NCBI GenBank assembly: GCA_021029095.1
Contig: JAJOHG010000002.1
Span: forward strand, 1 to 64,000
Source: Phellopilus nigrolimitatus
Taxonomy: Eukaryota > Basidiomycota > Agaricomycetes > Hymenochaetales > Hymenochaetaceae
DNA: 64,000 nt
Direction: 5' to 3'
The notes under the pieces were generated by a model that was not told the origin of the DNA, did not search any database, and worked only from the letters and a program-made list of their open reading frames with translations. Both the position numbers and the translations under genes were made by a program. Positions 12,963-46,297 of the stretch are shown here, in pieces. The number at the start of each line of letters is the position of its first letter. Position 1 is the stretch's first letter.

Positions 12963-13600
<638 letters not shown>

Positions 13601-13649
13601 GCGACAGTTAGAGGCATTTTTCTCCTCATTAGTAAATCTACACCTGCTT

Positions 13650-15014: not shown

Positions 15015-15689
15015 CACTGGTACCAGCTGCCTGATTGATTCAAGGTCAGCGAACACTCTCAGTGACATGTTGCATCAATCTCAGCAAATGCTGAGTGTTT
15101 GAGTATTCTGTTTTCAGCATTGCTACCAGTATCAAACTAAGGTTAATAAGCTAGTATTAGAGCTGCAAATAGGTTTAATTAGTATTTTTGTTATTGTATC
15201 CCATTTAAAGTAGTTTATAAAGATTTTCAGATTAATAGCTGTCGGAACAGTATTCTTATCATGTGATCATCAAACGACGATCTTCCGTCATCATGATCTT
15301 CAGGTGATCATTTTGTACCTTACAGGGCTTGATTTGTCAGAAATTTAGTATTATTATTCCTATTTATTTATTTATTTACAGAATAAATCCCTGCCCGCTG
15401 CCCGCGCTCCCCCCAATGCGCACCAGCACCCAGCTGCAATGCACACCTGTACGCTGGTTACCCCGTAGTGGCGGGCGTGCCCGTAGGCTCGCCCTTGGCG
15501 CCGGCGCGCGTAATGGCGTCCCAAAACGCTCAAATGTATCATTATTAGTAGTTTATTGTTCATTTACAAAAAAAAAGCCCCCGCAGTTCCCCTCCGCCTT
15601 GCACAGATACGCACCAGCCCCAATTGCCCGTAGCTCGCCCTGGCGCCTCCAGACGGGCTGGCGTCCCTGTACGCTCGTCCAGCGCGCTA

Positions 15690-15835
15690 CCTAGCACGCC
15701 TTCGCGCTCGTCCCGCGCGCTGCCCGATGCACCTTTGCGCTCGCATCCCGTACGCCGCCCGACGCGTCTTCGCACTCGCGTTCCGCGCACTACCCGACGC
15801 GTCTTCGCGCTCGCGTCCCGCACTGTCGGGAGGTG
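15690..15835. repeat. GC-rich imperfect tandem repeat
   Basis: About four imperfect ~33-bp units around CTGCCCGACGCGTCTTCGCG, within E1. Confidence 0.55.
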
Positions 15836-15889
15836 TTTCGAATGAGGATTGGTCACAGCGAAAGCAAGGTACGAATAAACAGCTGGTGT

Positions 15890-16690
15890 TCGAGGCGATC
15901 GGAAGGCAGATTTTCGCGGCGGCAGCGTCGTCAGCATCTACGATAACAGGGTCCTTTTGCCGTCCTTGTAACGCACATGAGGAGTGTGGGGCACGGTTGC
16001 GGCGGCCTTCGCGCGAACGGACACGGACAACCGTGAGATAAGAGGTCAGTACTTTGAAAAAGAAAGAGGAAAAGAGACGTACCGTGCGAGTAGATGACGC
16101 ACAGGCTATCTTGACGTACCGAGAGGCAGTTAGCCGGCACATCTCGCTAGCGGCAGCACCGGCAGCAGCTGCGACGGCCAAGTCGGCCCTTTTGCCGTCC
16201 TTGTAACGCACATGAGGGAGTGGGGCACGGTTGCGGCGGCCTTCGCGCGTCAACTGAGGACCAAGGAGTCAGCATAAAAAAGAGAATGAAAGAGATATGA
16301 GACTCACCGTGCGAGTGGATGGCACTCGATATGCAGTAAGCGATCTTGAGGTACAGTTTCGGGATCACGTATTCTGCTCAAACAATCAGGGGGATAAGAA
16401 TCCTCGAAACTCGAAATGAAGTTTTAGCTTACCCTGGTAGACTGATGCCTCGGAGATGTCACGGACAGCGGCGGACTCGGCCATGATGCACACGGTAAAG
16501 CGCTTGATGGCTTCGTCCTTGGGCACACAACGCGAGCAGTTCGAGCAGCGCAGTGTCCCGGCATGGAGACTAGCAAGAGGCCTGAGGAACGAAGACTAGA
16601 AAAGTTATGAGCAGAGACGATGAGCACGATGAGCACGACGAGCACGACGACATCGCCCGACGAGCACGAAATTCAACATGTCACGGGTGA
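15890..16690 (-). pseudogene. RPS26: Ribosomal protein eS26 (RPS26) fragments inside E1
   Basis: The zinc-binding exon near 16560-16431 reads [19 protein letters not shown] then [14 protein letters not shown]. The next exon (VIPKLYLKIAYCISSAIHSH) is near 16370-16305, and the C-terminal exon (REGRRNRAPLPHVRYKDGK and an alanine-rich tail) near 16255-16145. A second set of the last two exons follows (YVKIACASSTRT and REGRRNRAPHSS, about 16125-15900), a tandem duplication. Introns are retained. The normal N-terminal exon is replaced by unrelated sequence. eS26 is a small-subunit protein of the mRNA exit region; this copy cannot encode it. Confidence 0.9.
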
Positions 16691-16699
16691 CTTACCGAA

Positions 16700-17840
16700 A
16701 TAGGTCATCACATTCATCCAAATCAGGTATGTTTTGGATCAGCAACGATTGATGGGCTCGCCGCAGCTACAAAACATTGCTGTAGCGCAGCAGCATCTTA
16801 ATTATAAATTACTAAAAAATCACTTTATAATTATAGCTCATATAATCTTGCTTTTTAGAAGAAATTGGATGTCCGCAAATGCCATAAACTGAGTTATTAA
16901 CCTAACAGTGCAAATATCGGTTTTTCCTCAGTGTTGCCTTTGTAGTGCTATATACAGGGTGCCCGAAGCGATGTAAGTATTTATTCTAGGTTTCTAGTAT
17001 GTATTTCTTCGATATTGGAAAGTTTAAGCACCTGAGAAAGTCTACATCTTGTGTATAATAGCTTACAGTACATGATACTCTGTATGCAGCAGTTTCGGGT
17101 CTGATTGATTTGTTCTACCTCCGAAAGGGCACCTAACCACACAGATGTTATACATACAGGCCTATATACTTTACTGATATCATAATTAAAAGTCCTGAGC
17201 TGTTTAAAAGCTGGGCAGTTACACTGGAAAGCAAAGATGCTGCAAAAGACTGTTTTGCAAGCTGTAGCAAATTCTGAATATTTTATGAGCACACAAAAAT
17301 TGTTTTATTGGTAGCTTGAAGCACTTTGAATACACCCAATTCCCCCCATATTTTTTGATTTGAGGTTGCCTATGAAAGTATCAGGTGTGAAGGCTTTGAA
17401 CCAGTAAGCCGGGATGACTTACAGGAAAAGCAAACCGATCTATAGCTTTGAAGGTACCTGTTTCCTAGATCTACATATTATAGGCTCTCAATCAATAATC
17501 AAAGTACATTAAAGGTTTCTAAATACGTTGAATACATATGTCAGGAAATTTGAGCCCGTTCGGCCCAGCCGATCGAGGTCGAAAATTGTTTTAGTGAAAA
17601 GTAGCACAAATCCCCTTTGTACATTAACTAAATGCTTTATCTATCACCATCGCACGCATCCTGTCCTGTAAAAGTTTTTTGGGGGACATAGGACGACTAC
17701 TAAAATATAACTACTTTGTTCCGAAGCGATCAGTTGAGTCTTTGAATTGTAAAAAACGAATTGGTTGCGCGCTACCGGGAGCGCTTACGAGCGCTTGCGC
17801 GGATCGGCACAACATTCGCACGGTTGAACATGCGTGCTCG
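16700..17840. repeat. Non-coding core shared by E1 and E2
   Basis: This stretch aligns by eye with about 43140-44270 in E2, in the same order and orientation, at roughly 80-85% identity. Anchors include CATATAATCTTGCTTTTTAG and CCCGTTCGGCCCAGCCGATC. No ORF is conserved. It separates the divergently oriented RPS26 and BAR fragments, so it may be transposon backbone or captured intergenic DNA. Confidence 0.7.
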
Positions 17841-17844
17841 TTAG

Positions 17845-18700
17845 TTCGACTCGCTCAACAATGTCGTCCACGGCACCCAGGACCGTAGAAAGCTCAAGGT
17901 AAGCGTTGAAACACTCAGCGGGCTTACATATAACTAAATTTCTTGCTTCTATACCTATTCTATGTAGTTAAGAGTCGTTGACACAACTGTCGACGACGTT
18001 TTGGGCTTCGCCGCGACGAACCTCAAAGGTACTAATCTGCCTGCACCCGCACCCGTCGCGCCGGAGTCCGTGCAGCACAAGACACTCCTGCACGCGCTCG
18101 GGCGTGCAGCGACGACCGCGACACAGGCGCTGCAAAGCACGGGCACCGGGCCCGATGAGAAGGCGACGAGGGCGCGTGGGACAGGGTACGTGTCCTTTAC
18201 GCTTCTCCATCCTTTCTTTCTTTTCTTTCCCGTCTTAGTCCTGGTAGATGAGTATATTTGGGGTCTCGCGTTCCAGATCTCCGACGCGCATCTCACGCAA
18301 AACAGGACGATCCGCGTGCACTTCCTGCAGCCCCGGCAGGCGACACTCACCAACTCGATCGCGGTCGCGCTCAGGGTGCGGCAAGCGGTCTCCGCGTCGT
18401 GGCTCGAACTCGACACTGCGAAGGAGGCGTTCAAGACCGCTGGCCCCGCGACGCAGGAACGATCACGGCTCGAAGTCGAGAACGCTGAGGGCGACCTCGT
18501 GCAGAAGACGCGACCACGCTCAAGAAGACCGTCCTTGAGAACGTGCGTACAAGCTCGGTTCAATTGTGGTACGTCCTTTGTGCTCAATGGCATACTAAAT
18601 ATGTTTTATTGCAGCCCGAACCATTGAAGAACCTGAACGAGCTCGTTAAAGCTCAACTCGCCTACCGCGTGTCCGCTGTAGAGACGCCCTCCGCATCCCC
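17845..18700 (+). pseudogene. BAR-domain protein fragment inside E1
   Basis: Exon pieces read SLNNVVHGTQDRRKLK (17845-17898), NLKGTNLPAPAPVAPESVQH with LHALGRAATTATQALQSTG (about 17970-18185), HLTQNRTIRVHFLQPRQATL then WLELDTAKEAFKTAGPATQE (about 18265-18510) and EPLKNLNELVKAQLAY (about 18615-18665). The helical pattern and NPEPLKNLNELVKAQLAYH-like motif are typical of fungal BAR proteins (Gvp36-like), which bind curved membranes. Introns remain. The first and last exons of a complete gene are missing. Confidence 0.7.
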
Positions 18701-19502
18701 TTCACCAGCAAGAAGGCCCGCACGCCAGGACGATCGACCACGCCAGAATGAGAGGGGCCGCGGAGGACTGCGCACTGAGCAAACGGCGCCGACGGCTCGC
18801 GCGGCGAGCGGAACAAATGCTCGCGCGGTGAGGACCCGAAGAACTGAATACGAACAGCGAGCTCACCGGCGACGAAGGTGGCGCTGCGCTGTGCGCCACC
18901 AACGATACGAGCTAGCACCGGGAGGGGGTGATTGCGAGCGCGACTAACGTGCCATTGCATTTTGCCGCCCGATGACCGGCGCGTCGTGCGCCCTTTATAT
19001 TTATATAATCAATAATAGTTGTATTTATTAGTTAAGTATAATATAATATTTCTCTACAATATAAATAAAAATAGACAATAAAGGGTCCTGCATAATTCGA
19101 GGCCGGAATGACTTGTGTGCTGCAAAAACGACTGTACGTAACCATCAATCAATACTGATAGTCTTTACAAGCAATCAATATGTTAATCCTCAAATTGATG
19201 TGCCTCCCGAAGAAACAAATCCTGCTTTCTTCTTTTTGACATTCTTCCATCAATTATTGCTGCATCTAAATGATGCAGCTGCCCGGGATAATTAATGCAA
19301 TATTATTAAAAATTTCCAACCTAATATGTCCCTTTTCAAGCAAAATTTGGCCCCAGATTTGAATTTTCATTCAGAGCAGCGTTGCTGAACTATTTTTTCT
19401 CAAGCAAACGCTGACATTGATGCAACATGGCCATATAAGCAACGCTGCATTTCATTGAATGAAACCGCTGAGGTTTATTGAATGAATGAGCTGGGAGGAC
19501 TG

Positions 19503-19830
19503 GAGGACGATGAGGGGATTGATCTCGAGATAGGCGAAGTGAAGGTCGGCGTAGACGGCGTAGTTGCGGGTGATGAAATCGATGGGGGACGTGGGTGAGG
19601 AGTGAGGATGCGACAACTTTGCGAGTGGAAAAGGGCGCGCCGACAGAAACGTCGAGCTTGAGGGCCTTCGCATCGACATCGCCGAAGTCTATACTGCCCT
19701 CATGGGTGAAGAGAATGGTGTCGCCCTCATGCGCTGAAGTGATACAGATGTAGAATTCAGTGTGGGACGGATGGGGGAGGAACGGCTCGACAATAAAGTT
19801 GGTGAAAGTGAGATGAAGCCCTCGAGTCCC
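19503..19830 (-). pseudogene. ACL1: ATP-citrate lyase, first part of a split fragment
   Basis: NFIVEPFLPHPSHTEFYICI, HEGDTILFTHEG and DVDAKALKLDVSVGA, then after a frame change YAVYADLHFAYLEINPLIVL, match the N-terminal part of the enzyme. The frame breaks off at the E1 boundary (19503) and resumes at 15014. The N-terminus is missing: near 19830 the frame runs into an unrelated piece. Confidence 0.9.
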
Positions 19831-19849
19831 GCGACGACGCACTACGCGC

Positions 19850-20215
19850 GGCCGAACGTGCGCGTGAGCGCCGCGAACTTGCCGAGCATCAGCAGGCAGT
19901 TCAGGATGCTGAAGTGCGCCTCGAGCAGCGGCGGCGCGATGTCATGTGCGAGCGCCGACGCGTCGTCTTGCCTGCTGTTCGGGCGGAAAGTCTCGAGCAG
20001 CGCGAACGCGCGCTCCATCCTGTGCAGGACGTCGCCGTCCCCAGAGTCCCCAAGAGTCCCGCGTCCGGCGCCTCGAGCTCGAGCGTGTCGAAGTGCGCGA
20101 GAAATTTCTCGTGCTTGCTCTTCCTAGCAGCGTGCACACCTGCTCGCGGAGTCTGCCGTCGCCGAAGGTCGCGCGATACGCACGCACCTTTGCGCCGTCC
20201 GCATGGCCGAGCGGG
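19850..20215 (-). pseudogene. Unidentified gene fragment in island 1
   Basis: The minus reading, over two or three frames, gives AYRATFGDGRLREQVCTLLG, KHEKFLAHFDTLELEAPDAG, ERAFALLETFRPNSRQDD and EAHFSILNCLLMLGKFAAL. It is helical, protein-like and GC-rich. I do not recognise the family. It is fused downstream to ATP-citrate lyase. Confidence 0.4.
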
Positions 20216-21090
20216 AATGGGACTTGCGACTGGGAGAGGGGGGTTGCGGCTGCGCTTGCGGAGCCTGAGGCTGGAAGTCGCGCGGCGGCTCTTGAATATA
20301 CTGTGCTTGATTATCGTCTGCGGGGAAGGGGCCGTACGACTGGGGCGGGTAAGGCAGGGGTGCGGACTGGGGGTAGGAACCCTGACACGGGTCGCCGAAA
20401 CCAGAGTTTCCGATATTACTATATGAGTTTATGAGTACAATCGTTCGCTAGTCGATCGGACACGGGGTTTAAAGGGAGTCAATAAGAAAAAAGATCTTCG
20501 TCTCAAAGGGAGGATTGCAACACAGAGAGTACATCAAAGCGCACGGAAGCCATACACAAAGAGTCGAGAAATAAAAAACTCACCTGGACATCAATTGTTC
20601 GAGCAAAAGCTTCCCCTGGGCCTCGTTTCCAGACTGCACAATCCCCGCGCGCCGCTCACGCTGCTTGATGCTGGGCGGACTCGGGGGGATGAGTGGTTGA
20701 TTCCCGGCAAAGGTGGCGCTCGATGACGCGCACGAGGGAGCAACGGTCGAGCCGAGCAGCGACAGCAACGCGCTCTGGCGGTCTGCAGGTGGCTGGATCT
20801 GGGCAGACCCGGCCGAGGAGTGAGATGCGGTGGTGATTGAGGAGACGGCTTTCGCGGGAGCAGAGTTGTTGTTGTTCGGCGGGGGGACCTGGGTGCGGAA
20901 CAGGTTTTCATGTTGGCGACAGCGGGAGGTGTCGGGCCAGGCTCGGATGCAGCGGACGGCTGGGTGTTGTTGAGATTGCGGAAAAGAGAGTCGACAGATT
21001 TGGGCGGGGACGCGGGGCGGCTCGAGATATGTTTGGGTTGAGCTGCACGACGGTGCACTCTTCAGTGTTGTCGACTTGCTGCTCACAGCT
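20216..21090 (-). pseudogene. Unidentified proline/glutamine-rich fragment (possibly decapping factor)
   Basis: Two exon-like parts: 21090-20580 with LLSLLGS, NQPLIPPSPPSIKQRERRAG and EAQGKLLLEQLMS, then 20440-20220 with a Pro/Gln/Tyr-rich stretch (LPYPPQSYGPF). The short LLSLLG and KLLLEQLM motifs recall mRNA-decapping scaffold proteins such as Dcp1, but the match is weak. It is the rightmost minus-strand piece of island 1. Confidence 0.3.
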
Positions 21091-21310
21091 TGTCGATCTC
21101 GTCGATCTCCGTGCCGCGCGGGACGCGACTGTCACACGTCTGTCACTGCCAGCGTGCACACTGCCGACGCCAACCACGAACAACAAACGACGAACGACGA
21201 ACGACGACGACGCATGCCACGCGCGTAGGAGATTATGCTCTCGCTGCTGCTGTGTTCTGCTTCCTGCTCGGAACTAGATCGTCTGCTTTTTCCCCTGGAT
21301 TTTCTCTGCT

Positions 21311-22777
21311 TTGTTCTTTCTTTCTCTTCTATCATGTCTGTTTGCCGTGAATCAAGGTCTCCATCTGCCTATGCGCCCGCCCGCCCTGCTCAAGGTTACA
21401 AAGAACTCGACTTCCGTATGGCAGGACGACCTCCAAGCCCTCTTTCATCACTCGAAAGACCGCTTTCCCGGCGTTGTCTGGGATCTCGTTGATGAAGTGA
21501 GGAGGTCTGGGGGCATAAAGGTGAGCGCGCATCCACTAGTGTCTAGCCATCTTTGGCCCGCTGACTGTCGACTACTAGCTATTGTGTACGCGCGCGCACC
21601 GCCGAGCTTCCAGGCTCGCTACTTCACCTTCCGTTCCGCTCCCGTCGCGTCCCCGCTACTCTTCGCCGCTTCCCCGACGCCATCTCTCCCCATGCCCACC
21701 ACCTCCGCACTGTCCCTCAACCTCGGCGTCGACTTCCCCTACCCCGCCTCCCTCCGCTCCGGCTCGCCCTCCCACTTCCGCTCCGCGTCTCCCGCACCCT
21801 CCGTTATCGACTCCCTCACCCGCATCCCCCTCGCGCACAAGCCCGCGCTCTTCGCCAATGAGCTTGAGTATCTCTACACTGGCAAAGGCTTCGGTGAGGC
21901 CTTCGCCTTCCTCTTCGATGCAAGTGAGCAGGCTGCAGAGGGTGACGCGGACGCGGACGAGACGCGCATTGATAAACTGCGCAAAGACCTCGTCTTTATG
22001 TGGAGGTCGCGTCTTTACTCCGACGTTGAGATCGAGCTTACAGGAGAAGTCCAGTCTGCGTCCGGCTCGTCTGAAGAAGAGACTGCTGCTATTTTCTGGT
22101 CACACCGTTTCATTCTCGTGACGTGCTCGCCTTATTTCTATGACCAACTCATCACCTACGGCCTCAAAAACACACCTGCTCTCGGGGAGCCAGCAAGAGT
22201 CCGACTACCATCCCTGCCATTCACCCCGCCCGCAATGCACTTTACTCTCGGCTACCTCTACTCGGGCACTGTCAACTTCTCGAACCGGTCATATGACCTC
22301 GACGCCGCCTTTGCAATCCTCTGCTCCGCAAACTACCTCCAGCTCCAGTCCCTTCACGACGAGGTCCAGGCGCGCCTCGTTCAGGAGATGCTGGATGGGC
22401 TTTTCCATGCCTTCCTTGAATTCGCGGAGTACGAGTGTATTACTGGCGGCCGCTGGGGCTCCAGCGGCTGCGGCTGCCGCCCGTCCGCCCGCCGCGCCCC
22501 GCGCGTGCTACTCTTCTCCGTCTGCCCGGATGTGCAGAACGCCTACCTCGAGTGTGGTGCCCGCCGCACGCTCGTAGGCCTCTTCGGCGAAGGCTGGTGC
22601 ACTGCGGAGTTGTCGATGCTGTCCCAGAAGACGAAAGACAGGCTCGTGTGCGGCCTCGCGAAGCACACGACCCCGCTGAACGTGTTCTCCCTACTCTTCG
22701 CGGCGCAAGCGGCCCTGCGCGACGTGTGGGCGGTGCCGTTCGCAATATGGTCCAGGCGGCGCACGCGTGGCGATTGA
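21311..22777 (+). pseudogene. BTB/POZ-domain protein, probably truncated copy
   Basis: After WQDDLQALFHHSKDRFPGVV there is an intron (about 21521-21579, GTGAGC...CTACTAG), then AIVYARAPPSFQARYF, a serine/proline-rich linker, a BTB core (RSRLYSDVEIELTG, FWSHRFILVTCSPYFYDQL, FTLGYLYSGTVNFSNRSYDL) and GGRWGSSGCGCRPSARRAPR. BTB domains dimerise and often recruit Cul3 ligases. Homologues continue further; here the frame degenerates after about 22700. The true start is unclear (ATG at 21311 or 21333). It could be a real gene cut at the 3' end or another captured piece; it diverges from the minus-strand fragments across about 240 bp. Confidence 0.7.
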
Positions 22778-22913
22778 TGGGGTACTATGTAACAATGCAG
22801 AGAACGACGCTGTGAGTGTCCGACAACGACTGCAGACCGGAAGAAGACACTTGTCACACAGGTATGATAGTAGCTATTTATTTTACTTTACACTTCTTGC
22901 AACATCCACCGGC

Positions 22914-23085
22914 GTGCCCAATGGTGACCACTTAGGAGCCGGCTCGTGGTGGATGTCTCTGTCAGATGGCTTGCCTTGTGCTGTTGTCTGCAGAGTTTTA
23001 GTTTAGTTTTCAGCTTTCCCCTTGTCTTTGGATCCCACGTCCGCGTGTCCAATGGTGACCACTTAGGAGCCGACTCGCGGTGGGG
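22914..23085 (+). repeat. Pair of ~41-bp direct repeats 131 bp apart
   Basis: Units at 22914-22954 and 23045-23085 share AATGGTGACCACTTAGGAGC and the following CCG-CTCG-GGTGG with a few substitutions. The surrounding 22800-23834 has no gene I can support. Confidence 0.6.
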
Positions 23086-23834
23086 TCCGCTGACTGTTTC
23101 TTTTTCTATCTTAAATTTTCCTCTCAGAGCCTTGCTGTCGTTGTATGACAGCAATTGTCTCTGCCTTCAAGTCCCTTGATATACTGAATTATTCACAGCC
23201 TGAAGCACGTTTAAGTAGCCTACAGGTAAATACTGTAGTGGCCTCAGTATGCAGGTTGCTACTTTGATCTGTAATTTACTAAACTGACAAGTGAACTGGT
23301 TTTGATGTAAATTGCGTCGTCCTGAGTGTGGAGGACGGCACAACAACCGTGGGAAAGTAAGATCTGCACTGACCGGCCAATTGCTCGAACTTATATACAG
23401 CATAAATAAATGACAATACATGGTATGGAGATATAAAGCACACCTTCAGGAAGGTCTCATTGAGCTCTATCGACTGGGAAAAAAAGTAGAATTAAATATT
23501 AAATATTCAACCTAACAAAAAACGAACTAAACAGCCATTTGACAGGCTATTGAAAGCTACGTACAGAATCAAGTACCCAACATAAATGCAAGGTAAAAAC
23601 ACCAGATCATAGCTTGTAAGAAGGTCTTCTGACTGATATAATTTACAGAGCAAGAAATCTGAATGCAGAATTGAACTCAAGTCGTGAAGACCGACCTCAG
23701 GTGGCAAGGATGAAGATGCCGGTGAACATCCACCCATAAAAATACAAATGCACGTAAAACACTCAATGTTTTTACATATTCCTGTTCTAATTACATGGCA
23801 CTACCCACAGCAAAAAGAATTTCTGATGGATGGG

Positions 23835-24085
23835 CAGTGAAACAAAAGTTATGGCAAAAATACAAAAGTGAAAGGTGGTGAGCAACCTCGTCTTCCCAAA
23901 AAGGAGACAAGTTTGAAGCGAGGACACAAATTGTAATGATGTGGCACGGGCGCCGATACCAAAGTACACTCGCTTAACGCACTTTTTGTACACTTTTTGT
24001 ATTGCAACACAGCCGCAACAAACATATGCAAGCACAAAGATAATGACCAGTTAGTAGGACGATCCTTCCTTACGTCAGGGATCGT
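23835..24085 (-). repeat. Dispersed repeat, copy 2
   Basis: Inverse copy of the repeat at 2103-2350, with the same short frame (AIQKVYKKCVKRVYFGIGAR). One end carries GGGATCGTAAC, a motif also found next to the hairpin repeats. Confidence 0.6.
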
Positions 24086-24849: not shown

Positions 24850-24878
24850 TGAACTAGCCAGAATATGTCCAAATTGAT

Positions 24879-26798
24879 TTGGCGCATGACAACGTCCATG
24901 ACAAAGAATTATTGGGTATTATGCGAGCGCTTGAAGCATGGCGCCACCATTTGGAAGGCTCAACCCATAAATTTGAAATATGGACTGATCACAAGAATTT
25001 GGAATACTTCATGAAGGCGAAAAATCTTAATCGTCGACAAGCTCGTTGGTCCCTCTACCTGTCTCGCTTTGATTTTGTAATTCTTCATAAACCTGGCAAA
25101 ACAATGGAAAAGACTGATTCCCTCTCGAGACGTTCGGACCTTAAAGAGGGGGTGGAGAATGACAATAAAAATGTAGTCTTGTTGAAACCAGAATTTTTCA
25201 AAATCAAAGCGACTCAACAGGGTCATGTCTTGTTAGATGGAGAAGAGAAAGAGTTGTTGACGAAGATTAGGAAGGCAAAGGATTGGGATGAGGCGGTGGT
25301 GAAGGCGGCGGATGAATTGCGGAAGTCAGGGACAAAGAGGTTGAGAGGCGAAGAATGGGAAGAGGAGCAAGGCTTAATCCTATATCGAGGAAAGGTGTAT
25401 GTCCCAAAGGATGGTCAGATCAGGAGAGAAATTGTCAAACTACATCACGATTCGGCAGTAGCAGGACATCCAGGAAATTGGAAAACTTTGGAATTGATTG
25501 CACGAAACTATTGGTGGCCAGGGATGACAAAGTTTGTACAAGCTTATGTCAAAGGCTGTGATACTTGTGCGCGTCATAAATCTTTACCAGAGAAGCCTGC
25601 TGGGAAATTGATGCCTAATCCCACTCCTACTGCACCTTGGGAAGATATTTCAGTGGATTTTGTGACAGGACTGCCAGAAGCACAAGGGTTTAATGCCCTA
25701 CTGGTAGTATGTGATCGATTCTCGAAACAAATCCATGTGATTAACACCAGAGAGGAGACCTCGGCGTTAGGACTGGCAGCATTGTATAGGGATCATGTGT
25801 GGAAACTGCATGGGTTACCGCTAACAGTAATCTTGGATCAGGGTCCACAATTTGCATCAGCGTTCATGAAAGAATTGAATAGCATTTTGGGGATCAAGAC
25901 CAAGCTGTCCACAGCATATCATCCACAAACAGATGGACAAACAGAACGGATGAATCAAGAGATCGAGCAGTATTTGAGGATGTTTGTTGATCATCGCCAA
26001 GAAAATTGGCCATCCTGGACTGCTATGGCTGAATTTGCATACAACAACAAAGTACAGACAGCCACAAAGATCTCCCCGTTCTTCTCTGTTTATGGAAGAA
26101 ATCCACGCATGGGTTTTGAAGTGCGAAGGGATGCTAAAGTAGAAGCGGCAGATGACTTTGCAAATCGGATGAAAGGAATACATGAGGAAGCAAAGTCAGC
26201 ATTGGAAAAGGCAAAAGAGGAAATGCGGAAGTACGCGGACCAAAGGCGAGGAGATGCTCCAAAATACAAAGTAGGAGATAAGGTCTGGTTAGACACCACA
26301 AACCTCAAAATAAACCAACCTTCTAGGAAACTCGCTGAGAAAAGAATTGGTCCATACCCCATAACGCGTATCATTTCTCCAAATGCTGTACAACTTCGTC
26401 TCCCAAACACCATAATAATACATCCTGTTGTAAATGTCTCGCGCATTCACCTGCACACCGCTGCCAGTATCCCTGGACAAAGAGCTGCTCCACCTCCACC
26501 CATAGAAGTAGGAGAAGAGAAGGATTCTGAAGTAGAGGAAATTTTGGATGCTAGACGACACAGAAACAAGTTGGAATTCCTAGTCAAATGGAAAGGGTAC
26601 ACAGATGAAAACAATACTTGGGAACCAGAGGAAAACTGCAAAGGGTCACAAAAACTTATAAAAGAATTCTATAAACGATACCCAGCAGCGCCACGGTCCA
26701 TCAGCCTAGCTGATTTCCAAGCCTTGAATTTCCGCCCTTATGAGAATTTCACATCCACTCCAACCAACTTTGTCAATCGTCTGGAAGTCGATCCTTAA
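24879..26798 (+). pseudogene. Gypsy B pol fragment: RNase H, integrase, chromodomain
   Basis: 639 codons without interruption. RNase H end: HDKELLGIMRALEAW, then WTDHKNLEYF and RRQARWSLYL. Integrase: zinc-binding region with H-H spacing (HHDSAVAGHPGNW) and CDTCARHK; catalytic core DFVTGLPEAQGFN, ILDQGPQFAS and HPQTDGQTERMNQ. C-terminus: a GPYPITRII-like module and a chromodomain (VEEILDARR, LEFLVKWKGYTDENNTWEPE). The chromodomain probably steers integration to methylated heterochromatin. The frame is intact from RNase H on, but lacks everything upstream. Confidence 0.92.
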
Positions 26799-26809
26799 AG
26801 AGGGGGTGA

Positions 26810-27645: not shown

Positions 27646-27674
27646 ACAGGGCGGTCACACACCTCTAACTACAG

Positions 27675-27735: not shown

Positions 27736-27763
27736 GCCCACTTCCACATTGTCGCATCGTCAC

Positions 27764-28871: not shown

Positions 28872-28936
28872 CTCCACCTACTAAGGCAAATTTCTAGGAG
28901 CGGAGTGAAGAGAAATTTGACTATTTAATTGTTACA

Positions 28937-33155: not shown

Positions 33156-35330
33156 AGTCCGGTGATGAAATCGCACGTAATATGGTAACTTGTCCGTATT
33201 TGTGTTAATAGGTCGTCGTTAGTTGTGATTTCCACTTCGTCTGCCTCGTTGTCTGTTCTTCGTATGGTTGGTACTGTTGATGCTTGTGATAGTATTACTT
33301 GTATATTTGTGTTATCTGGTTGTGCAGGTTGGATTCCTGGTAATCGGGATAATGCATCAGCTCGTTCATTCTTTTTCCCTGGGCGGTAATGTATTTGGAA
33401 GTTGTATCGGCTTAGATCGACTGCCCAGCGTGCTTGCCTGTGATTGAGTCTTTGTTTGGTTGTCCAGTATTGTAGATTGGCTTGATCTGTGATGACGATC
33501 ACAGGATGTTTGGCTCCTTCTAAGTGATGTCTCCAATTTTCAAAGGCTTTAACTATTGCCAGGAGTTCTTTATCCGGGGCCGGGTAGTTTCGTTCGGTGA
33601 GGGAGAAGGTTCAAGAAAAGTACGCGATCGGGTGTAATAGTTCATCCTTCCCGTATTGTGATAGGATAGCTCCGACAGCAAAGTCGGACGCATCTGTTTC
33701 CATGGTGTATTCTTTGTTGGGATCTGGTAGACTAAGGATTGTTTCTTCGCGAAACAGTCTTTTTAACTCCCTAAATGCTTGCATTTGTGGTTCTCCCCAC
33801 GTAAATGTTCGTTTGTCTGATTTAATGTCGTTTAATGGTTTCGCTATTTGTGCAAAGTTGGGTATGAATTTTCGATAGAAATTCGCGAATCCTATGAAAC
33901 TTTGAATGTCCTTCTTTGTCCGAAGTGGTTGCCATTCTTGTATGGCTTTAATTTTGTATGGGTCCATTTTTAACCCTTCTTTTCCTACTACGAATCCTAA
34001 GTAGTCTAGTTCTTGTTTCTTGAAGTAGCATTTTTCGGCTTTGCAATAGAAGTCTGCTATTCGCAGTCGTTGCAATACTTTCTTTACCAATTCCCAATGT
34101 TCTTCCTCCATTTTGGTGTAGATTATGATGTCGTCCAGGTAAATGAGAACTCCGTGTTCGATTAGGTCTTCAAATAGTTCGTTCATTGCTCTTTGGAATA
34201 CCGCCGGAGAGTTCATCATGCCAAACATCATTACTTTTGGTTCGAACACCCCTTGGTGGGTTCTGAATGCGGCTTTCCATTCGTCTCCAGGTCTGATTCG
34301 GATGTTGTTGTACCCGGCTCTGAGATCTAGTGTGGTGAACCATTTGGCTTTGGCTAGTCCGTCCGGTAATGAGTGCATAATTGGGATTGGGAAAGGGTCT
34401 GGTTTGCATATTTTGTTTATGGCTCGGTAGTCCGTGACCATTCGTGCCCCTGCGTCCTTTTTTCCCACAAAGAAGACTGGTGCGGCTATCTGGGATTTTG
34501 ACCTGGATATCCATCCCTTGGCTAGGTTTTCTTTGTTTTTCTAGTTCCGTTAGTGGATAGATTGGTCGTTTTGGTGGTAGTCTGCTTTGGTCAATAAGTT
34601 CTATTTGCATATCCCATTTATTGCTTTTCGGGAGTCTTTTCGCGCCTTCGGCTTCGAATCGGTCTTTGTAGTCTTCTAATTCTTTCGGTAGTAGTTTGTC
34701 CATGCTTAGTGGTTCAGAGTCTGCCGATCTCCCCTCGTTTGCTGCTTTTTGGTGGTGATATTTCTGGGCAATGCTGCTAACTTTTGTTAATTTTTTGCGT
34801 AGCTTTTGGTCATCTTGTTCTGTTAGTCTTTCCACTTCTTGGAGAATTTTGCGTATGATCGTTTGTCGTCCTATCGTTTCTGCTGTGTCCAGAATGTCTG
34901 ATGATTGTTCATCGTCTGCATTCCTCATTTCTTCGTTTGATGATCGCTCATCATCTGCTTCTGCTTCCTTCATTTCCTCATCCTGTTCTGGGATCGTGAT
35001 GCGTGAAGGTTCCTGATTGCTGATGCGCGAGGGTTCCTGATCGCTGCTGTCTTCTTTTGGTGGCGGTGTCAGTCGTTGATTTAGTCTTTTGGATCGTCCT
35101 TGCTCCGGTGATCTCTGCGTACGGGTTTTGCCTAGCACACTTTTCATATCTTGTGTTAACCAGGCTCGAATCGTACTTCGAGAGTTGATTGGTTGTGAGG
35201 GTAGTATTACGGGTTTCCTTACCCATTTCGTGACAACGTTTGTTGGGTTCCTTGATACTGTCTGTGGTGGTATACTTGGTTTTCCGATGTAGTCCTCGTC
35301 GTCGCTTTCATTGTCGCTATCGTCGAATAG

Positions 35331-36987: not shown

Positions 36988-36995
36988 ATTCTGTC

Positions 36996-37458: not shown

Positions 37459-37466
37459 ATTCTGTC

Positions 37467-39200: not shown

Positions 39201-39253
39201 GTACACAGACTTACTGGTAGGAGCCTTCTTTTGTGCTGTGCAGCGGGCTCGAA

Positions 39254-39301
39254 ATGGATGACGTAGTGTGTACAGCGCGCTGTACACACTACGTCATCCA
39301 T
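39254..39301. repeat. Perfect 48-bp palindrome with no spacer
   Basis: Arms of 24 bp (39254-39277 and 39278-39301) are exact reverse complements meeting at GCG|CGC. Each arm includes TGACGTA and TGTGTACAGCG. Such a structure can extrude a cruciform and is usually unstable. Confidence 0.92.
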
Positions 39302-39614
39302 GTCGACACCTGCCGTCGGCTTCCGAGTTGTCGGGTGCACGCGGGTTTTAACCTATTCCGCGCTCACGTGCGGCATGTGCGCGAGCATCGACGGCCTGGG
39401 GCACCGACACGCGCGCCGGAGGAGAAAGAGGAGGCGGTGGCTGGGCGCGCGCTCATGACGCATGACGAGGACAGAGTCGTACGACGCATGGTCCGCCGCG
39501 GCGCTGCGAAACTCCGGGAAGCGAAGTCGGATAGGAGGGCGTAGGGCCTAAAAAAAGTACTTTAATACCTGTAGGATTATCTACTATCCATACACGAAGC
39601 GCACCTCTGCAGCT

Positions 39615-39875
39615 TCATTTCCCGACAACCTCCCTGAGCGTGCCGAGGCTCGTCCAGAGCTCGCCGTCGCGCACGTCGAAGCCCAAGCTGCTAAGCTGCT
39701 CACGCAGCGCGCGCGCGCGATCTCCTGGCTGGTATTGCTGCAGAAGCGCACAGCGAGCCCCGCCTGCCACGCGCGCGAAACAGCGGCAGCTGCGACGGTC
39801 GTCGGGGCAGATGGGATGTGCAGCGTGCCGGAGAGGTCGATGAGGAGCGCGCGGATCGCGGGGCGGGGTATAATT
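39615..39875 (-). pseudogene. HAD-superfamily phosphatase (HDHD2/LHPP-like) N-terminal fragment
   Basis: ALLIDLSGTLHIPSAPTT carries the D-L-SGTLH motif of this HAD subgroup (first aspartate box), then AWQAGLAVRFCSNTSQE (the S/T motif) and, after a frame change, LREQLSSLGFDVRDGELWTS. The order and spacing fit the N-terminus of HDHD2/LHPP-type phosphatases. It is fused to the C-terminal SSN6 piece on one side and to unidentified sequence on the other. Confidence 0.7.
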
Positions 39876-39879
39876 TTCT

Positions 39880-41186
39880 AAGAATACGGAGTACGTGGTG
39901 TCGACCTCCTGCGTCTGATCGTCCACTCGAGCCCGCCGCGCTCGCCGCGGCCCTTTCGGCTTCCGCCCGCCGCCAGCACGTCGCTTGCGCTTCTCGCCGG
40001 CGGGACGTGGACGACCGACTTTGGTACGGGAGTCGGCGGCCCTCGCATGTTCATGCTGTCCGCATCCTTCGGCTTCCGCCCACGACGCTTGTCCGCCGCC
40101 TCAGGAGCACCGGGCGGTGGGTACTGAGTCGGATAGTCTGAGTTCGACCCCAGCCGACGGCGATGCAGCGCGCTTCTGCCCGATCCAGACACACTTCTGC
40201 TCAGCTTCCATGCGCCTGGGCCTCAAACTGCTCTTTCTCAAGCTTCAGCCTGCACGAGTACTCGCGCTCGCGGTCTATGCGTAACCTGTCGCTCCGCCCT
40301 TGCTCCGTGCGGGCTCTCGTCAAACCGTGGATCATAACGACGGCTAGGCGCCGCCGTCTGAGCTTGCGCTTGTGCACGCGGGTGAGCCGCAGGCGCTGCT
40401 GTAGGCGAATCCATCGGCGGCGGCCAATCTGTCGGTAACGAATCATCATTTAAGTGCGCGCTCAAGGCCGCAAGATGCTCTCCATATGGGCCGCTCGCCT
40501 TCCAGTGCTGGCCCAGTCCTGTCGCACCAGCGGGACCGACAAAAGGCGAGCGCTCACTCACGGAGTGCTGCCGCGATAAGGCATGTCCTGGGCTGCCTGG
40601 TGTGGGTCCAGACACGGCAGAGACCACCGACGACGGTGTTCCTATTATGCTCCTTCTTGACGGCGGGTGTGAAAGCGGTTCATACGGATGAGCAGACATC
40701 GGCAAAGCCGGTCCGCGAGACTGCGAGTGTGCATGGCTGAAATTCGATGCGGACGGTGGGAGCCCCATTCTATCGGAATCTCTCCTCGGGCGCACGCGCT
40801 CACGCTCCCTGTCCCCGCGCCATTCCCGTTCCCAGGTATCGGATGGTGATGAGGATGCCGCCAAAAGGTCGTAATGAGACGAATATCCGCGTGGTGAATG
40901 CCGTAAAGGTGCACCAGGCTGTCCAAGCCTCGCACTAACACCGTTACCGTTCGTCTGCGGAGGTGGCCCGGCAGGAGAATACCGCAGGAGAATACCCATA
41001 GCCAAGGTCAAGTGGTTCGGGAGGTGGACCGCGCACTTGACGCGGAGGCGGCGGCGATACGGGCGGCGACGGCGCACGGTGCGACGGGAGGCTGTAGTAC
41101 GCAGGGTCGCGCTGATGCTTTGGACCTCCTCGCGGCCCCGTTTGCGGATGATGCAACAGGAGGCTCTGCGGTGTACCCCCTGGCCC
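39880..41186 (-). pseudogene. SSN6: Corepressor Ssn6/Cyc8, C-terminal part of a split fragment
   Basis: A low-complexity Pro/Ser/Arg/His-rich region (PPSRRSIIGTPSSVVSAVSG, RGRKPKDADS, PPTPVPKSVVHV) typical of the tail of basidiomycete Ssn6, the TPR partner of the Tup1 corepressor. Frames shift several times. At the E2 boundary (41186) the reading GGTPQSLLLHH continues the frame that stops at 46298 (HSPSRGP) exactly if E2 and one 7-bp repeat are ignored. Confidence 0.75.
41180..41186. repeat. 7-bp target site duplication of E2 (left)
   Basis: CTGGCCC, repeated at 46298-46304 immediately right of E2. Confidence 0.88.
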
Positions 41187-42429
41187 CACTGCTGCCAGCC
41201 AACTGATTCATTCAAGGCCAGCAAATGCTTGCTTGCGCAAAGTGTATGAAGCCCAGGTATAGCTGGTTAACTTTGGGCCAGCTACGCTACAGGCATTGAA
41301 TAATAGGTATACCAGCTGCTTGTGCTTTATCAGGCAGTGTTAGCTAATTAAACTACTTTATAATACAGAATTGGGTATTATTAAATGTATATGCCTCGCA
41401 GAGAATTTTTTTGCTTTTAAATATTGATCTAATCACTAATCTTTGCTTCTTTAGTATTAGACTGCAGCCCATCAAACATCTGACAGGTGGCCTCGGCCTT
41501 GGCCTATGCCAAACGTGGGGGACGGTGCACTGCCGCACGGTTCCTATTATATAATTTAAACTTCAATGAACACCGCCGCCCGCCGCTACCGCCGCACACT
41601 ACCGACGGGCCGCTCATCATCGCCCGCCCTCGCGCTCACTGTTCTCAATGTCGGCTTTTTTTTTTACTTCAATTTATTTGTATACTATGGGTTAGCTACC
41701 AGACATAGCTAAAATGAAAGAATACAATTTTTTTACTCTGAAAAACGACTGGGGGAGCGGACGAGGAGCGGCAATCAGGCAGGAAAGAAAAGAAAAAGTC
41801 GGAGCGGCTCCTTTTGCCGATCGCCCGCCTGCTTCCCTGTCCTGTACATCGTTTCGGGTCCGTTTGCTCACTCGCTGCCTGCGCTGTGTACCCCGGCGCG
41901 CTCGCTCACCCGTTCGGGGCATGCTGCACACCGTGACGCATTTCCGTGCTTCCTATCCACCTGCCGCCCCCACGTTCCTTGGCCGACCTGTATCTCGCTA
42001 GTGCGGAGGTTTGCTCGACCCCGCCGAGCAGTCAGAGATTGGCAACGCCAGCTCACACCCACGTAAAAGCACTCACTAAGGGATGGCCGCCACGGTGAGG
42101 CGGCGGCAGTGCGAGGCTCATTCTCGGCCGCTCATTGCGGAGATCACGCGCGAGGAGCGCGGGGAGTTCAGTTGAGGCGAACGCGGAGACGACGGATAGG
42201 CGCTGGTTCTGGTTGACCTTGACGTGTAAGCATCGCCAACGCTTGGTCGATGCGAGCAGGCGCCCGCTGCGGCACGTCACTGCAGAAAGCCCAACATCCT
42301 ACTTAATTTCCTGCCGTACCCCTTAGCCCTTAGTCCACTTACCTCACCTTGTCATTTAGTAGCCGCTGTAGGGAGGTGCCTCGAGTGAGGATCGGTCAAA
42401 GCGAAAGCAAGGTACGAATAAACAGCTGA

Positions 42430-43015
42430 AAGTCGAGGCGATCAGGAAGCAACTTTGGCAGCGGCAGCATCGGCAGCAGCTGCAACGGCCGGGTTGACCT
42501 TCTTGCAATCCCTGAAACGCACGCGAGGGGGTGAGGCATGGTTGCGGCGACCTTCGCGCGAACGAACACGCACAACTGTGGACCAAGGAGGCAGCATAAA
42601 AAGGAAAGTGAAAGAGTTATGAGACGCACCGTGCGAGTGAAGAGCACACGAGACGCATTAGGCGATCGTACAGTTTCGGAATCACGTATTCTGCGCAAAC
42701 GATCAGGCGGAGAATCCTCGAAATGAAATTTCAGCTTACCCTGGTAGACTGACTCCTCGGAGATGTCACGGATAGCGGCGGACTCGACCATGTTGCGCAC
42801 AGTAAAGCGCTCAATGGCCTTGTCCTTGGGAACACAGCGCGAGCAGTTCGAGCCGCGCATGAGCCTGTTGCAGGGGCCATCGAGGGACACAAGGCGAAGA
42901 TGTCGCGGATGCTCGGCCATGATGCGCACGGTGAAGCGTTTGATGGCCTTGTCCTTGGGGATACAGCGCGAGCAGTTCGGGCAGCGCAGAGGCCCGACAT
43001 GGAGACTAGCAAAAG
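42430..43015 (-). pseudogene. RPS26: RPS26 fragments inside E2, zinc exon duplicated
   Basis: Two copies of the zinc-binding exon lie in tandem: [19 protein letters not shown] (about 43005-42900) and [20 protein letters not shown] followed by [14 protein letters not shown] (about 42865-42740). Then come a middle exon beginning [12 protein letters not shown] (about 42690-42625) and the C-terminal exon [17 protein letters not shown] with an alanine-rich tail ending in a stop near 42439. Introns are retained. In E1 it is the last exons that are doubled, so the two copies have different internal duplications. Confidence 0.9.
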
Positions 43016-44269
43016 GCCCGAGGAACAAAGACTAGAAAGACAGAGGTATGAGCAGAGACGACGAGCACGACGAGCACGACGACGGCGAGCACGAAACTCA
43101 ACATGTCACGGGTGACTTACCGAAATAGGTCGTCACTTTTGTCTAAATAAGGTATGTTTTGGATCAGGAGAGATTGATGGGCTCGCCACAGCTGCAAAAT
43201 ATAGCTGTAGCGCAGCAGCATTCTAATTATAAATTACCAAATTTTTATTTTATAATTATAGCTCATATAATCTTGCTTTTTAGAAGAAATTAAGTCTGTG
43301 CAACTGCTGTATCTTGAGCTGTTTGCCTGGCAGTGCAAATATCCATTTTCCCCCAATGCTGCCTTTGTAGTGCTATGTACAGGGTGACAGAAGCACTGTA
43401 GGCATTTAGACTAAGTTTAGGGTACATATATCCTTGAAAATACAAGTTTTAAGCAGCTGAAAAGGTCTGAATCTTGTGTATAATACCGTACAGTATTGGA
43501 TGCACTGTATGCAGAAAATTTGGGTCTGATTGATTTCTCCTACATCTGAAAGGTCAGCTAATCGCCCAAATATTGATCTTATAAGCTTATATAGTATATA
43601 TATACCATCTGAAAAAGATTTGAATCATTTGAAGGCCGGTCAGTTACACAAGAAAGGAAACATACCCTAAAGTACAGCTTTGCAAGCTGTGGCAAATTCT
43701 GAATATTTTGTGGGCACACAAAAATTGTTTTTTTGTTAGTTTTAAGAACTTTAGATACACTCAAGAGTCCCTGTATTTTTTTTTTGGAAGTTGTCTATGA
43801 AATTACAAGTTGTCAAGGCTTCGAACCGGTAAGACAGAAGTGGTTCCAAGAAAAGCAAACTCATCTTCAGCTTTGAACGTAACTGCTTGCTAGATCAACG
43901 TATTAGAGCCCCTCAATTACTTATCAGACTACATTAAAGGTTTTTAAGTACTTCAAAGACATATGTCAAGAATTTTGAGCCCGTTCGGCCCAGCCGATCG
44001 AGGTTGAAAAATGTTTCTGTGAAAAGTGGGTCAAATTCCCTTTGCTCGTTAACTAAATGCTTTATTCATCAACATCGCGCTCGTCCTAGCCGGTAAAACT
44101 TTTTGTAAGAATACAATTGTACTATATAAATGTAACTATGCGACGACACGTCAATCCGTTACGTTGTTGAATTGTAAAAAACGAAACAGTTGTGCGCAAA
44201 CGCGAGCGCTTACGAGCGCTTGCGCGGTTCGGCACAACTTTCGCACGGTTGAACTTGCGTGCTCGCTGG

Positions 44270-45095
44270 GTTCGACTTACTCAACAACGTCGTTCACGAC
44301 ATCCAGGACCGTAGATAGCTCAAGGTAAGTGTTCAAACACTCAGCGGGCCCATACACAACTAATTTTCTTGCTTCTATATCTATTTTATATGTTCAGGAG
44401 TCGCTAACACAGCTGTCGACGACGATTGGGCACGGGCTCACCAACTTCGCCGCGACGAACCTCAAAGGTACTAACCTGCCCGCACGCGCGCCCGTCGCGC
44501 CGGAGCCCGTGCAGCACAAGATGCTCCCGCATGCGCTCGGTTGTGCAGCGACTACCACGGCGCAGGCGCTGCAAAGCACGGGTACCGGGCCCGACAGGAA
44601 GACGACGACATACCAAGCGGGCGTCTGGGACAGCGTGCGTGTTCTTTACTCTCCTCTCTTTTCTTTCTTATCTTAGTCTGCTTGAAAGACACGCGTCTCA
44701 CGCAAGACAGGACGATCTGCACGCACTTCCTGCGTCTTTGGAAGGCGACACTCATCAACTTGATGGCGGGCACGCTCAAGGTGTGGCAGGCGGCCTCCGC
44801 ATCGCGGCTCGAACTCCACACGGCGAAGTAGGCATTCAAGACCGCGGGCCCGCGAGGCAGGAACAATCGCGGCTCGAAGTCGAGAACGCCGAGGACGATG
44901 TCTTGCAGAAGACGGGGGTTGCGATCATGCTCATGAAGGTCGCCCTTGAGAACGTGCGTACGAACTCGGCTTAATTGATGATACGTACTCGTGCTCAACT
45001 GAATATGCCCTTATTGCAGCCTGAACACTTGAAGAACCTGAACGAATTCGTCGGGCTCAACTCGCCTACCACGCGTCCGCTGCAAAGGCGCTCTC
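44270..45095 (+). pseudogene. BAR-domain protein fragment inside E2
   Basis: Same gene piece as in E1: NNVVHDIQDRR, then ESLTQLSTTIGHGLTNFAAT, LTQDRTICTHFLRLWKATL, EQSRLEVENAEDD and EHLKNLNEFV. It has additional stops (for example in the first exon and near 44829). Introns sit at the same places as in E1. Confidence 0.7.
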
Positions 45096-45249
45096 CGCCA
45101 TAATCGCGTGCGCGCCTGCTCGTCGACACACGAATCCATCACAACGAGTAGCCGCGGCTCCTCGAACGTGCGCGTGAGGTCACCTCCAACGCGCACATCG
45201 CCCTGTCCATCTCCCTGTCGCATACCGTCAGCTCCGACTCGCGCCAATC

Positions 45250-45570
45250 TCTCTCGCGGGTGCGGCACGCCCGGCGCCTAAGGCGAAGCGCAAGGTCATC
45301 TTCAAATGCGCAGAGTCGTACGTGAAGAGCTACGTCTCGAAGGAGAAGGAGGAGGTGCGCCTGAAGCGCTCGGCCCGTGCTGTGGGCGACTTCTACGTCC
45401 CGGCAGAGCCGAAAGTGTACCTCGTTGTCCGTATCCGCGGTATCAACGAAATCGCACCGAAGCCGCACAAGATCCTGCCTGCTCCAGATCAACAACGGTG
45501 TTTTCGTAAAGGTCACGAAGGCGACGCAGCAGATGCTCCGTCTCGTCGAGCCTTACGTTGCCTACGGGTG
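45250..45570 (+). pseudogene. RPL7: Ribosomal protein uL30 (RPL7) fragment inside E2
   Basis: [60 protein letters not shown] and, after a frame change near 45480, [20 protein letters not shown] with [10 protein letters not shown] are the N-terminal half of RPL7. It is absent from E1, so it was gained by E2 or lost from E1. It is joined directly to the 3' end of the BAR fragment. Confidence 0.9.
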
Positions 45571-46297
45571 CGCAATCCTTCTCTCTTGCGCGGGCGCGGC
45601 GCGCTCGGTTACTCTGGCCTTCCGAATCTCTTTCCCCCCTTTTGTAATTAATACGCGCCGCTTGCTCCTTGCAAATGGCAACTATTATTTAATTTAATCT
45701 CATATATAATCCCCCCCCCATATGGTTTCAAATAGAGAAAAAAGAATAGTGCAAGAACAATAGAATAGACAATGATAACTACAGTATGTAAAATAAATTT
45801 ATTTATTTGATGAGTTTTTCGTTGAGCTACGTGAAGGCGGCGGCAAACAGTGATCGGGAGGCGGGAGGTCTGCTTATGTGATCCCGACGAATCGGCGCGC
45901 GATGTGAATAAATAGAAGCATCCAAATGTATTTGTAAATAGTCTCCCGCCCGCCGGCAACAGCCATCCCGATGGCAATGATATCACATCAATCAAACTTC
46001 AGGGCACAATCATAGAAGCTCATGATCATGGCACTCCGGATATTTTTAGTTTTTTGATAATAAAGAGAATAAATTAAGTACTATTTAAAAAAAGTAGCCC
46101 CTAGGCTGCTCGGATATCATTTAAAAACCCAAAATCGCTTTTTTCGGACTGCCAGATAGCTGACCAAGCCTGCTACACAGTGAATTCAATCCCAGCAGCA
46201 ACGCTGCCTTGAATTATTCAATGAACGCAGGGCCTTATACACTTTTGCCTGCTAAGCATTCGCTGGTTAGTATTGAATTATCTTCCTGGTAGGACTG

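Follow-up and report, generated by a model that had tools for sequence, protein, structure and literature searches.

Pack-type gene capture is tied to MULE, hAT, CACTA and Helitron elements. In the plant Pack-TYPE (PMC8903248) and animal Pack-TIR (PMC8277862) elements, transposon ends enclose pieces of host genes and some of the elements are multicopy; for the animal elements, multicopy and single-copy alike, capture by template switching or gap repair has been proposed (PMC8277862). In fungi, DNA transposons have captured and amplified histone H3 in Pyrenophora tritici-repentis (PMC3538342) and in Mycosphaerellaceae (PMC6710886), and Helitrons of Pleurotus ostreatus are likewise basidiomycete DNA transposons with extra genes (PMC4289320). 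Here we describe two elements, E1 and E2, in a 64-kb stretch of the genome of Phellopilus nigrolimitatus (the window). Their ends enclose fragments of host genes, and they are very probably non-autonomous DNA transposons of the KDZ superfamily, most likely of its Kyakuja branch, moved by the KDZ transposase of a larger relative with the same ends. P. nigrolimitatus is a saprophytic member of the Hymenochaetales with a reported genome of 56.7 Mb (PMC10410303); the window covers the initial 64 kb of the 2.27-Mb contig C112, in an assembly of 56.4 Mb and 635 contigs that includes near-identical contigs.

Kyakuja, one of three KDZ branches and characterized in 2025, is described as having 7-bp target-site duplications (TSDs), 5'-CA..TG-3' termini and no terminal inverted repeats (TIRs) (Kojima 2025, PMC12730594). 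The same source gives 8-bp TSDs for Zisupton and for the described Dileera element, and reports that KDZ elements took up a TET/JBP gene in some lineages; this gene is present in the Kyakuja families screened for it but is not required (PMC12730594). In Pleurotus, CxC2 precedes intact KDZ elements (PMC7641404). The KDZ1-3 elements of Cryptococcus neoformans, also a basidiomycete, are mobile elements of ~9-11 kb with a KDZ transposase, but have TIRs of 139-241 bp, TSDs of 8 bp (KDZ1) or 4-8 bp (KDZ2 and KDZ3) and CxC1, and the available part of that paper describes no cargo elements (PMC12810828).

The elements of the window resemble Kyakuja (PMC12730594) in their 7-bp TSDs, their 5'-CA..TG-3' termini, the KDZ transposase encoded by same-ended elements and the Agaricomycetes host, and differ from it in lacking a transposase, in carrying host-gene fragments and in having a short imperfect inverted end. 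The histone H3 elements have a hAT transposase, with a Tc1/Mariner case in Pyrenophora (PMC3538342) and an 8-bp TSD in Mycosphaerellaceae (PMC6710886), and captured a histone transcript; E1 and E2 have KDZ-type ends and a 7-bp TSD, keep introns and combine parts of two to three genes that lie at separate loci. Unlike E1 and E2, the Pleurotus Helitrons are rolling-circle elements (PMC4289320). Plant and animal Pack elements occupy other hosts, and the source here is KDZ; the word "fungi" occurs 0 times in the available text of PMC8277862. We found no gene-fragment-carrying KDZ element in our searches of the open-access literature, judged mostly from titles, abstract starts and term counts. The first-pass annotation of the window had called Pack-type cargo little documented in fungi. 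The cargo is indeed of this type, but capture in fungi is already documented for hAT and Tc1/Mariner elements.

Boundaries, empty sites and genomic copies

The coordinates of E1 and E2 and of their flanking duplications are exact to the base, as follows (names beginning with C denote contigs).

15008..15014, no strand: left TSD of E1, GAGGACG, of which the C434 empty site has one copy only
15015..19502, + strand: E1, 4488 bp, probable non-autonomous KDZ-type element with host-gene pieces
15015..15104, + strand: E1 left end, which over 91 columns matches that of the long C611 element (KDZ gene further inside) and of its C54 copy at 93-95% identity
19377..19440, + strand: E1 right subterminal stretch, present at 85% in the C611 element
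19489..19502, + strand: E1 right terminus, inverted CAGTCCTCCCAGCT
19503..19509, no strand: right TSD of E1, GAGGACG
41180..41186, no strand: left TSD of E2, CTGGCCC
41187..46297, + strand: E2, 5111 bp, probable non-autonomous KDZ-type element with host-gene pieces
41187..41380, + strand: E2 left end (194 bp), which matches that of the transposase-bearing C168 element at 90% identity
46022..46297, + strand: E2 right end, which matches that of the C168 element at 88% identity
46298..46304, no strand: right TSD of E2, CTGGCCC

The termini of E1 are CACTGGTACCAGCT...AGCTGGGAGGACTG and those of E2 are CACTGCTGCCAGCC...TCCTGGTAGGACTG. When each left end is set against the inverted right end, 10 of 14 bases match in E1 (chance ~0.0006) and 9 of 14 in E2 (chance ~0.003), while the chance of an exact flanking 7-mer is ~6e-5 per element. 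The positions and 7-bp repeats reported by the first-pass annotation were confirmed at GAGGACG and CTGGCCC, as was the colinear interior of RPS26, core and BAR in both elements. Its description of the ends as related and inverted holds for the outermost bases, which agree between E1 and E2, and for an inversion that is imperfect. Further in, the ends of E1 and E2 are unlike, with an identity of 52-60% that is about the level of unrelated aligned sequence, compared with 89-97% within each subfamily (five E1 and five E2 copies). No transposase was found in the scanned open reading frames (ORFs) of E1 and E2.

It is the empty sites, rather than the host reading frame, that establish the element boundaries. 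Contig C434, over all of its sequence that was compared, is colinear with the window at 10572-15014 (4.4 kb, 99.2%) and at 19503-24060 (4.6 kb, 98.5%); at the junction the two matches overlap by exactly 7 bases, a single GAGGACG is present and 60 of 60 bases are identical. The empty counterpart of E2 is a paralogue on C1, 86% identical on the left and 94% where it adjoins the element on the right, and less colinear further out. The overlap is again exactly 7 bases, 56 of 60 bases agree and the single 7-mer has one base different. Because of these two empty sites the interior is not ancestral at either position, and the possibility that it predates the split host copies, which the first-pass annotation had named as the case against its reading, was not borne out within this genome. 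To extend the comparison, 90 bp from each side of 13 insertions (C53, C224a and C224b were left out) were joined without the element and with one 7-mer, and the genome was searched. A match ran through the join for nine of the 13 queries, with best identities of 92-100%: E1_C112a, E1_C112b (45+90 bp only), E1_C212, E1_C625, E1_C114, E2_C112, E2_C346a, E2_C90 and E2_C13.

The first-pass annotation had also proposed that each element splits a coding sequence, ATP-citrate lyase for E1 and SSN6 for E2, and that continuity of the host frame fixes the boundaries. With E1 and one 7-mer omitted, an ATP-citrate lyase frame continues past the join, and its alignment with human ATP-citrate synthase (1.3e-7) spans this point. 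At the E2 join one minus-strand frame is open for 149 aa and another for 483 aa, but minus-strand frames also stay open when both 7-mers are kept (185 aa for E1 and 351 aa for E2), and the length of an open frame alone is therefore not discriminating. The SSN6 identity of the E2 host is tentative, its TPR matches (1.6e-5 and 0.0082) both lying below the Pfam cut-offs. Both hosts have further genomic matches (C434, C614 and C42 for the ATP-citrate lyase-like host; C1, C135, C606, C71 and C390 for the SSN6-like host), so the insertions need not be loss-of-function and the disrupted copies may be dispensable.

A genome search with each of the four element ends gave at least 9, 7, 10 and 9 places. 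Sixteen copies have both ends, seven of E1 type and nine of E2 type; 15 bear cargo and one E2-type copy (C168) carries a transposase instead. All 16 start with CACTG and end with ACTG, and 14 are flanked by exact 7-bp duplications, with no strong common sequence among the 7-mers. The remaining two are E2 copies on one contig (C224:295369-306563), 100.0% identical, in opposite orientation and 1037 bp apart, which hold GGCACCG and GACTGGT reciprocally. Flipping the spacer restores to each its own pair, as would be expected from one inversion of the spacer between transposon copies. The tabulation of flanking repeats that the first-pass annotation had put forward as a check was thus survived by its claim of 7-bp duplications. 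Since C112b and C53 have the same 7-mer and flank, they were counted as a single site, giving 15 sites from 16 copies. In these searches left ends on C611, C54 and C624 had no right-end match.

Over the columns that they share, C346a, C346b and C13 show 100.0% identity; each has its own TSD, and C13 has 290 bp more. C625 and C390 show 99.5% identity and likewise differ in their TSDs. Identical copies with different duplications point to recent movement. The 11.8-kb copy on C25 was considered as an autonomous element and rejected, because its extra length is a young long terminal repeat (LTR) retrotransposon nested in an E2 copy (L023:5692-L024:2131, that is, C25 element positions 5039-11379), with 1.44-kb LTRs that are 99.5% identical. 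An E2-like copy at C624:81159-85867 is degraded: it retains pieces of RPS26, core, BAR and RPL7, but extra sequence breaks the match and the right end was not detected.

Transposase-bearing relatives and superfamily

An element with the same ends and a transposase, of the kind that the first-pass annotation had recommended looking for as an autonomous member, was found on C168. This element (375969-392615, 16,647 bp, TSD AGCAATA) has E2-type ends and shares with the E2 copies only 194 bp on the left (90%) and ~280 bp on the right (88-94%). Its transposase gene comprises 11 exons with no internal stops, the introns of the model being 50-59 bp with GT..AG borders, and the spliced product contains a full KDZ domain (PF18758, 3.9e-66) and CxC2 (1e-35). 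The protein corresponds to the annotated DFH11DRAFT_1546400 (1044 aa), with identity from the methionine of the latter on. Among other Hymenochaetales, Schizopora and Rickenella have related transposases. A single C168 ORF was also searched against the PDB, with no useful result.

Two further KDZ-bearing elements have related ends. One lies on C45 and C417, contigs that are 99.8% identical where they overlap: in C45 the right end GCTGGTAGGACTG is followed by the 7-mer CCGCGAA, in C417 CCGCGAA directly precedes CACTGCTGCCAGC, and the element would measure ~14.4 kb if both contigs hold the same insertion. The other is a long element present at two different sites, on C611 and C54, 99% identical where aligned and with 6.2 kb extra in C611. 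In the C611 copy, which has the left end of E1, a KDZ gene lies 24.5 kb in and 64-68 bp of E1 right subterminal sequence occur at 29 kb. Besides the transposase gene, C168, C45 and C611 have in common fragments of another gene, which lie on the opposite strand close to the left end (e.g., L025:4155-4595) and for which no Pfam family was found in the scanned C168 ORFs. A family search listed 73 KDZ matches in the genome, counted by exon piece. L034 (C154) gave no blastn match above 100 bp to C45, C417 or C168.

A KDZ transposase therefore lies between E2-type ends (C168), between related ends (C45/C417) and between E1-type end sequences with the right tip missing (C611). The duplications are of the Kyakuja length directly in 14 of 16 copies, reciprocally in two, and again in C45/C417, and the termini are 5'-CA..TG-3' in 16 of 16. 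The first-pass annotation had held that a 7-bp duplication does not neatly fit hAT or KDZ, for both of which 8 bp is usual. For KDZ this was mistaken, since Kyakuja makes 7-bp TSDs and the same-ended C168 element encodes a KDZ transposase, and with TSD length and termini both fitting Kyakuja the objection falls. Within the superfamily Kyakuja is the most likely branch, as suggested by TSD length and termini; the Pfam KDZ model spans all three branches. CACTA/EnSpm elements (3-bp TSD, CAC..GTG termini) were rejected because the TSD here is 7 bp and the right end is ACTG, although the left CAC is present. Helitrons make no target duplication and were rejected because target duplications are present.

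That these are hAT-type elements carrying host genes, for example of the hAT7 kind and comparable with the histone H3 elements of other fungi, is very improbable. Gene capture by fungal hAT elements is known, and hAT7 of rusts has 7-bp TSDs (PMC12730594), but the same-ended C168 element encodes KDZ with CxC2, two further KDZ-bearing elements have related ends, and no hAT family match was found in the 20 of 22 C168 ORFs of at least 120 aa that were scanned. A KDZ element of the Zisupton or Dileera branch that happened to give 7-bp duplications deserves more weight but is still unlikely. The length is not rigid in all KDZ elements, with TSDs of 4-8 bp in Cryptococcus KDZ2 and KDZ3 (PMC12810828); here, however, the duplication is 7 bp in 14 of 16 copies directly, compatible with it in the other two and 7 bp again in C45/C417, unlike the 8 bp of Zisupton and the described Dileera element, and the combination of CxC2, a ~14-bp imperfect inverted end and CA..TG termini differs from the 139-241-bp TIRs and CxC1 of Cryptococcus KDZ1-3. 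The presence of near-identical contigs, and the common TSD and flank of C112b and C53, might suggest that segmental duplication or an assembly artefact lies behind the similar interiors. This we regard as practically negligible, given that the copies lie at 15 distinct sites, all with a 7-mer of their own, that empty sites exist, and that on both sides of the element the window flanks stay colinear with the empty copies right up to it.

Several observations weigh against our assignment of E1 and E2 to Kyakuja-type KDZ elements moved by a larger relative. The ends are imperfectly inverted over ~14 bp (9-10 of 14), where no TIRs are described for Kyakuja. A single TET/JBP match, below cut-off and on C446, was listed in the genome and none was found in C168, so that TET linkage, a trait of the described Kyakuja families, lends the assignment no support. 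The C168 TSD is less decisive because its target is a short tandem repeat, and the C45/C417 element is a composite of two contigs that are treated as a single insertion. In the C611 element, unrelated sequence takes the place of the final ~52 bp and a matching 7-mer was not seen; with C54 covered to base 59,899 of 63,472, E1 is left without a complete same-ended source of transposase. Among 40 of 177 candidates scored, no empty site was found for E1_C390, E2_C346b, E2_C25 or E2_C168, and several targets are themselves repeats with many matches, clearly so for C112b, C90 and C13. The E2 core has no match outside these elements among the genome matches listed.

Host-gene cargo and mosaic interiors

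The two interiors are colinear and are made up of the following pieces, with percentages giving identity to the parental locus.

15825..16102, - strand: E1 RPS26 fragment, second partial copy, 81% to parent C229
16149..16552, - strand: E1 RPS26 fragment, main copy, introns retained, 87% to parent C229
16553..17971, no strand: E1 core, common with E2, GC 0.41
17972..18692, + strand: E1 BAR_2-domain gene fragment, introns retained, three frameshifts, 84% to parent C179
42342..42867, - strand: E2 RPS26 fragment, introns retained, 87% to parent C229
42905..43002, - strand: E2 RPS26 fragment, second partial copy
43003..44392, no strand: E2 core, mosaic, GC 0.40
44393..45096, + strand: E2 BAR-gene fragment, one stop and four frameshifts, identified via parent C179 (82%)
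45280..45586, + strand: E2 RPL7-type (Ribosomal_L30_N) fragment, 91% to parent C258, in E2 only of the window's two elements

As in Pack-TYPE and Pack-TIR elements, the transposon ends enclose fragments of host genes whose parents lie elsewhere in the genome, at separate loci (RPS26 on C229/C629, BAR on C179 and RPL7 on C258/C555). The RPL7-type piece had been missed in the first-pass annotation, whose inventory of E2 was incomplete in this respect. The retained introns show that copying was from DNA. The BAR piece starts and stops within parental exons. It belongs to the BAR_2 family (PF10455), which the E1 fragment matches; the E2 BAR ORF alone had no Pfam match. A search with PF03114 listed four places and C179 was not among them, the C179 parent having come from a DNA match.

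The cargo is decayed to different degrees. Each of the 15 cargo copies has between 2 and 6 frameshifting indels over the aligned BAR exons, of which C53 spans only 225 of 597 bases. In the seven pairs compared, the BAR differences fall about evenly across the three codon positions, as in unconstrained sequence. The RPL7 piece, still a fragment, is less damaged, with no frameshift in seven of eight copies and one stop in C25. Compared with the present host gene, E2 RPL7 differs mainly at third codon positions, and among element copies the differences are more even; divergence of the host gene since capture could account for this pattern but is not proven. When the core was compared with the KDZ elements, blastn found only the ends and short scraps, and tblastx only the ends and short pieces of low identity. 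Rfam gave no match in E2.

The interiors do not follow the ends. Identity in the RPS26-core-BAR block, from five copies of each type, is 76-93% within subfamilies and ~77-84% between them, and in a tree of the core from 11 copies the window E2 groups with E1_C625/C390 at a support of 100. Forced separation of E1 and E2 was rejected for the core (approximately unbiased (AU) test, p=1.8e-5) but not for RPS26 (0.55) or BAR (0.33). Within the E2 core, 43186-43635 is 86-95% identical to E1_C625, compared with 69-78% to three other E2 copies. Along the window E2, the closest of the five copies compared changes from E2_C224a (~96%) to E1_C625 (~95%) and then to E2_C25 (93%) and E2_C346a (up to 95%). 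The mosaic core and the rejected separation show that interiors were exchanged between differently ended elements, an exchange that may have occurred by gene conversion, crossing-over or template switching, which are indistinguishable here.

The two end types could belong to separate transposon families, each of which captured the same RPS26-core-BAR cargo or one of which gained the cargo of the other by recombination, rather than to one diverged family. We consider this a serious alternative, though the less probable one. Ends that are 52-60% alike between subfamilies beside a cargo that is ~77-84% alike would fit it, as would the lack of separate E1 and E2 groups in the core and the finding that E2-type ends bound one KDZ element while E1-type end sequences surround another. 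On the other hand, the outermost bases and the TSD length agree between E1 and E2, and C168, C45 and C611 have homologous transposase genes and pieces of a second gene in common. The agreement of outermost bases and TSD length, together with the homologous transposase, places both end types within one wider KDZ group. A further and rather speculative idea is that the RPS26-core-BAR block is a mobile cassette that passed between two sets of KDZ ends and was kept through amplification because it helps its carrier, so that the copies would form a recombining cassette pool rather than dead scraps. If this were true, the carrier might benefit, for example, from a promoter or chromatin context that resembles the host's and protects against silencing, or from RNA directed at the host copies.

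The window also holds other repeats. A copia-type LTR retrotransposon at 4830-10281 has 278-bp direct repeats that are 97.5% identical and a 1256-aa open frame with gag, integrase and RVT_2. A 1.1-kb direct repeat (27764-28874 and 52980-54092, 99.3% identical, 25 kb apart) flanks the E2 region, and 430 bp at 50280-50709 match their own reverse complement at 91% in a fold-back-like manner. Retrotransposon pieces, Ty3-like by their domains, lie at 24858-26798 and 29851-31002 (integrase with chromodomain) and at 33611-34540 (reverse transcriptase).

Proposed mobilization and significance

E1 and E2 keep the terminal DNA of a transposase-bearing element, with host-gene fragments around an AT-rich core inside. 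In the mechanism we propose, the CxC2-KDZ transposase of a larger same-ended element (C168, and the related C45/C417 and C611/C54) would recognize these ends in trans, excise the element and insert it at a 7-bp staggered cut. Mobilization in trans and cut-and-paste chemistry are the most likely reading of the ends and TSDs. The cargo probably entered by template switching or gap repair at the element, by analogy with animal Pack-TIRs (PMC8277862). The decayed cargo would then ride along, with interiors swapped between copies by recombination or gene conversion, even across end types.

The combination of CACTG...ACTG termini with a 7-bp TSD would offer a simple diagnostic for non-autonomous Kyakuja-type elements. 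Gene annotation might otherwise count such elements as extra ribosomal-protein genes. As source loci, empty sites, same-ended transposase genes and near-identical copies are all present in one assembly, capture and interior exchange become datable and directly testable. With a KDZ case, the superfamilies involved in gene capture would come to include one that is widespread in mushrooms.

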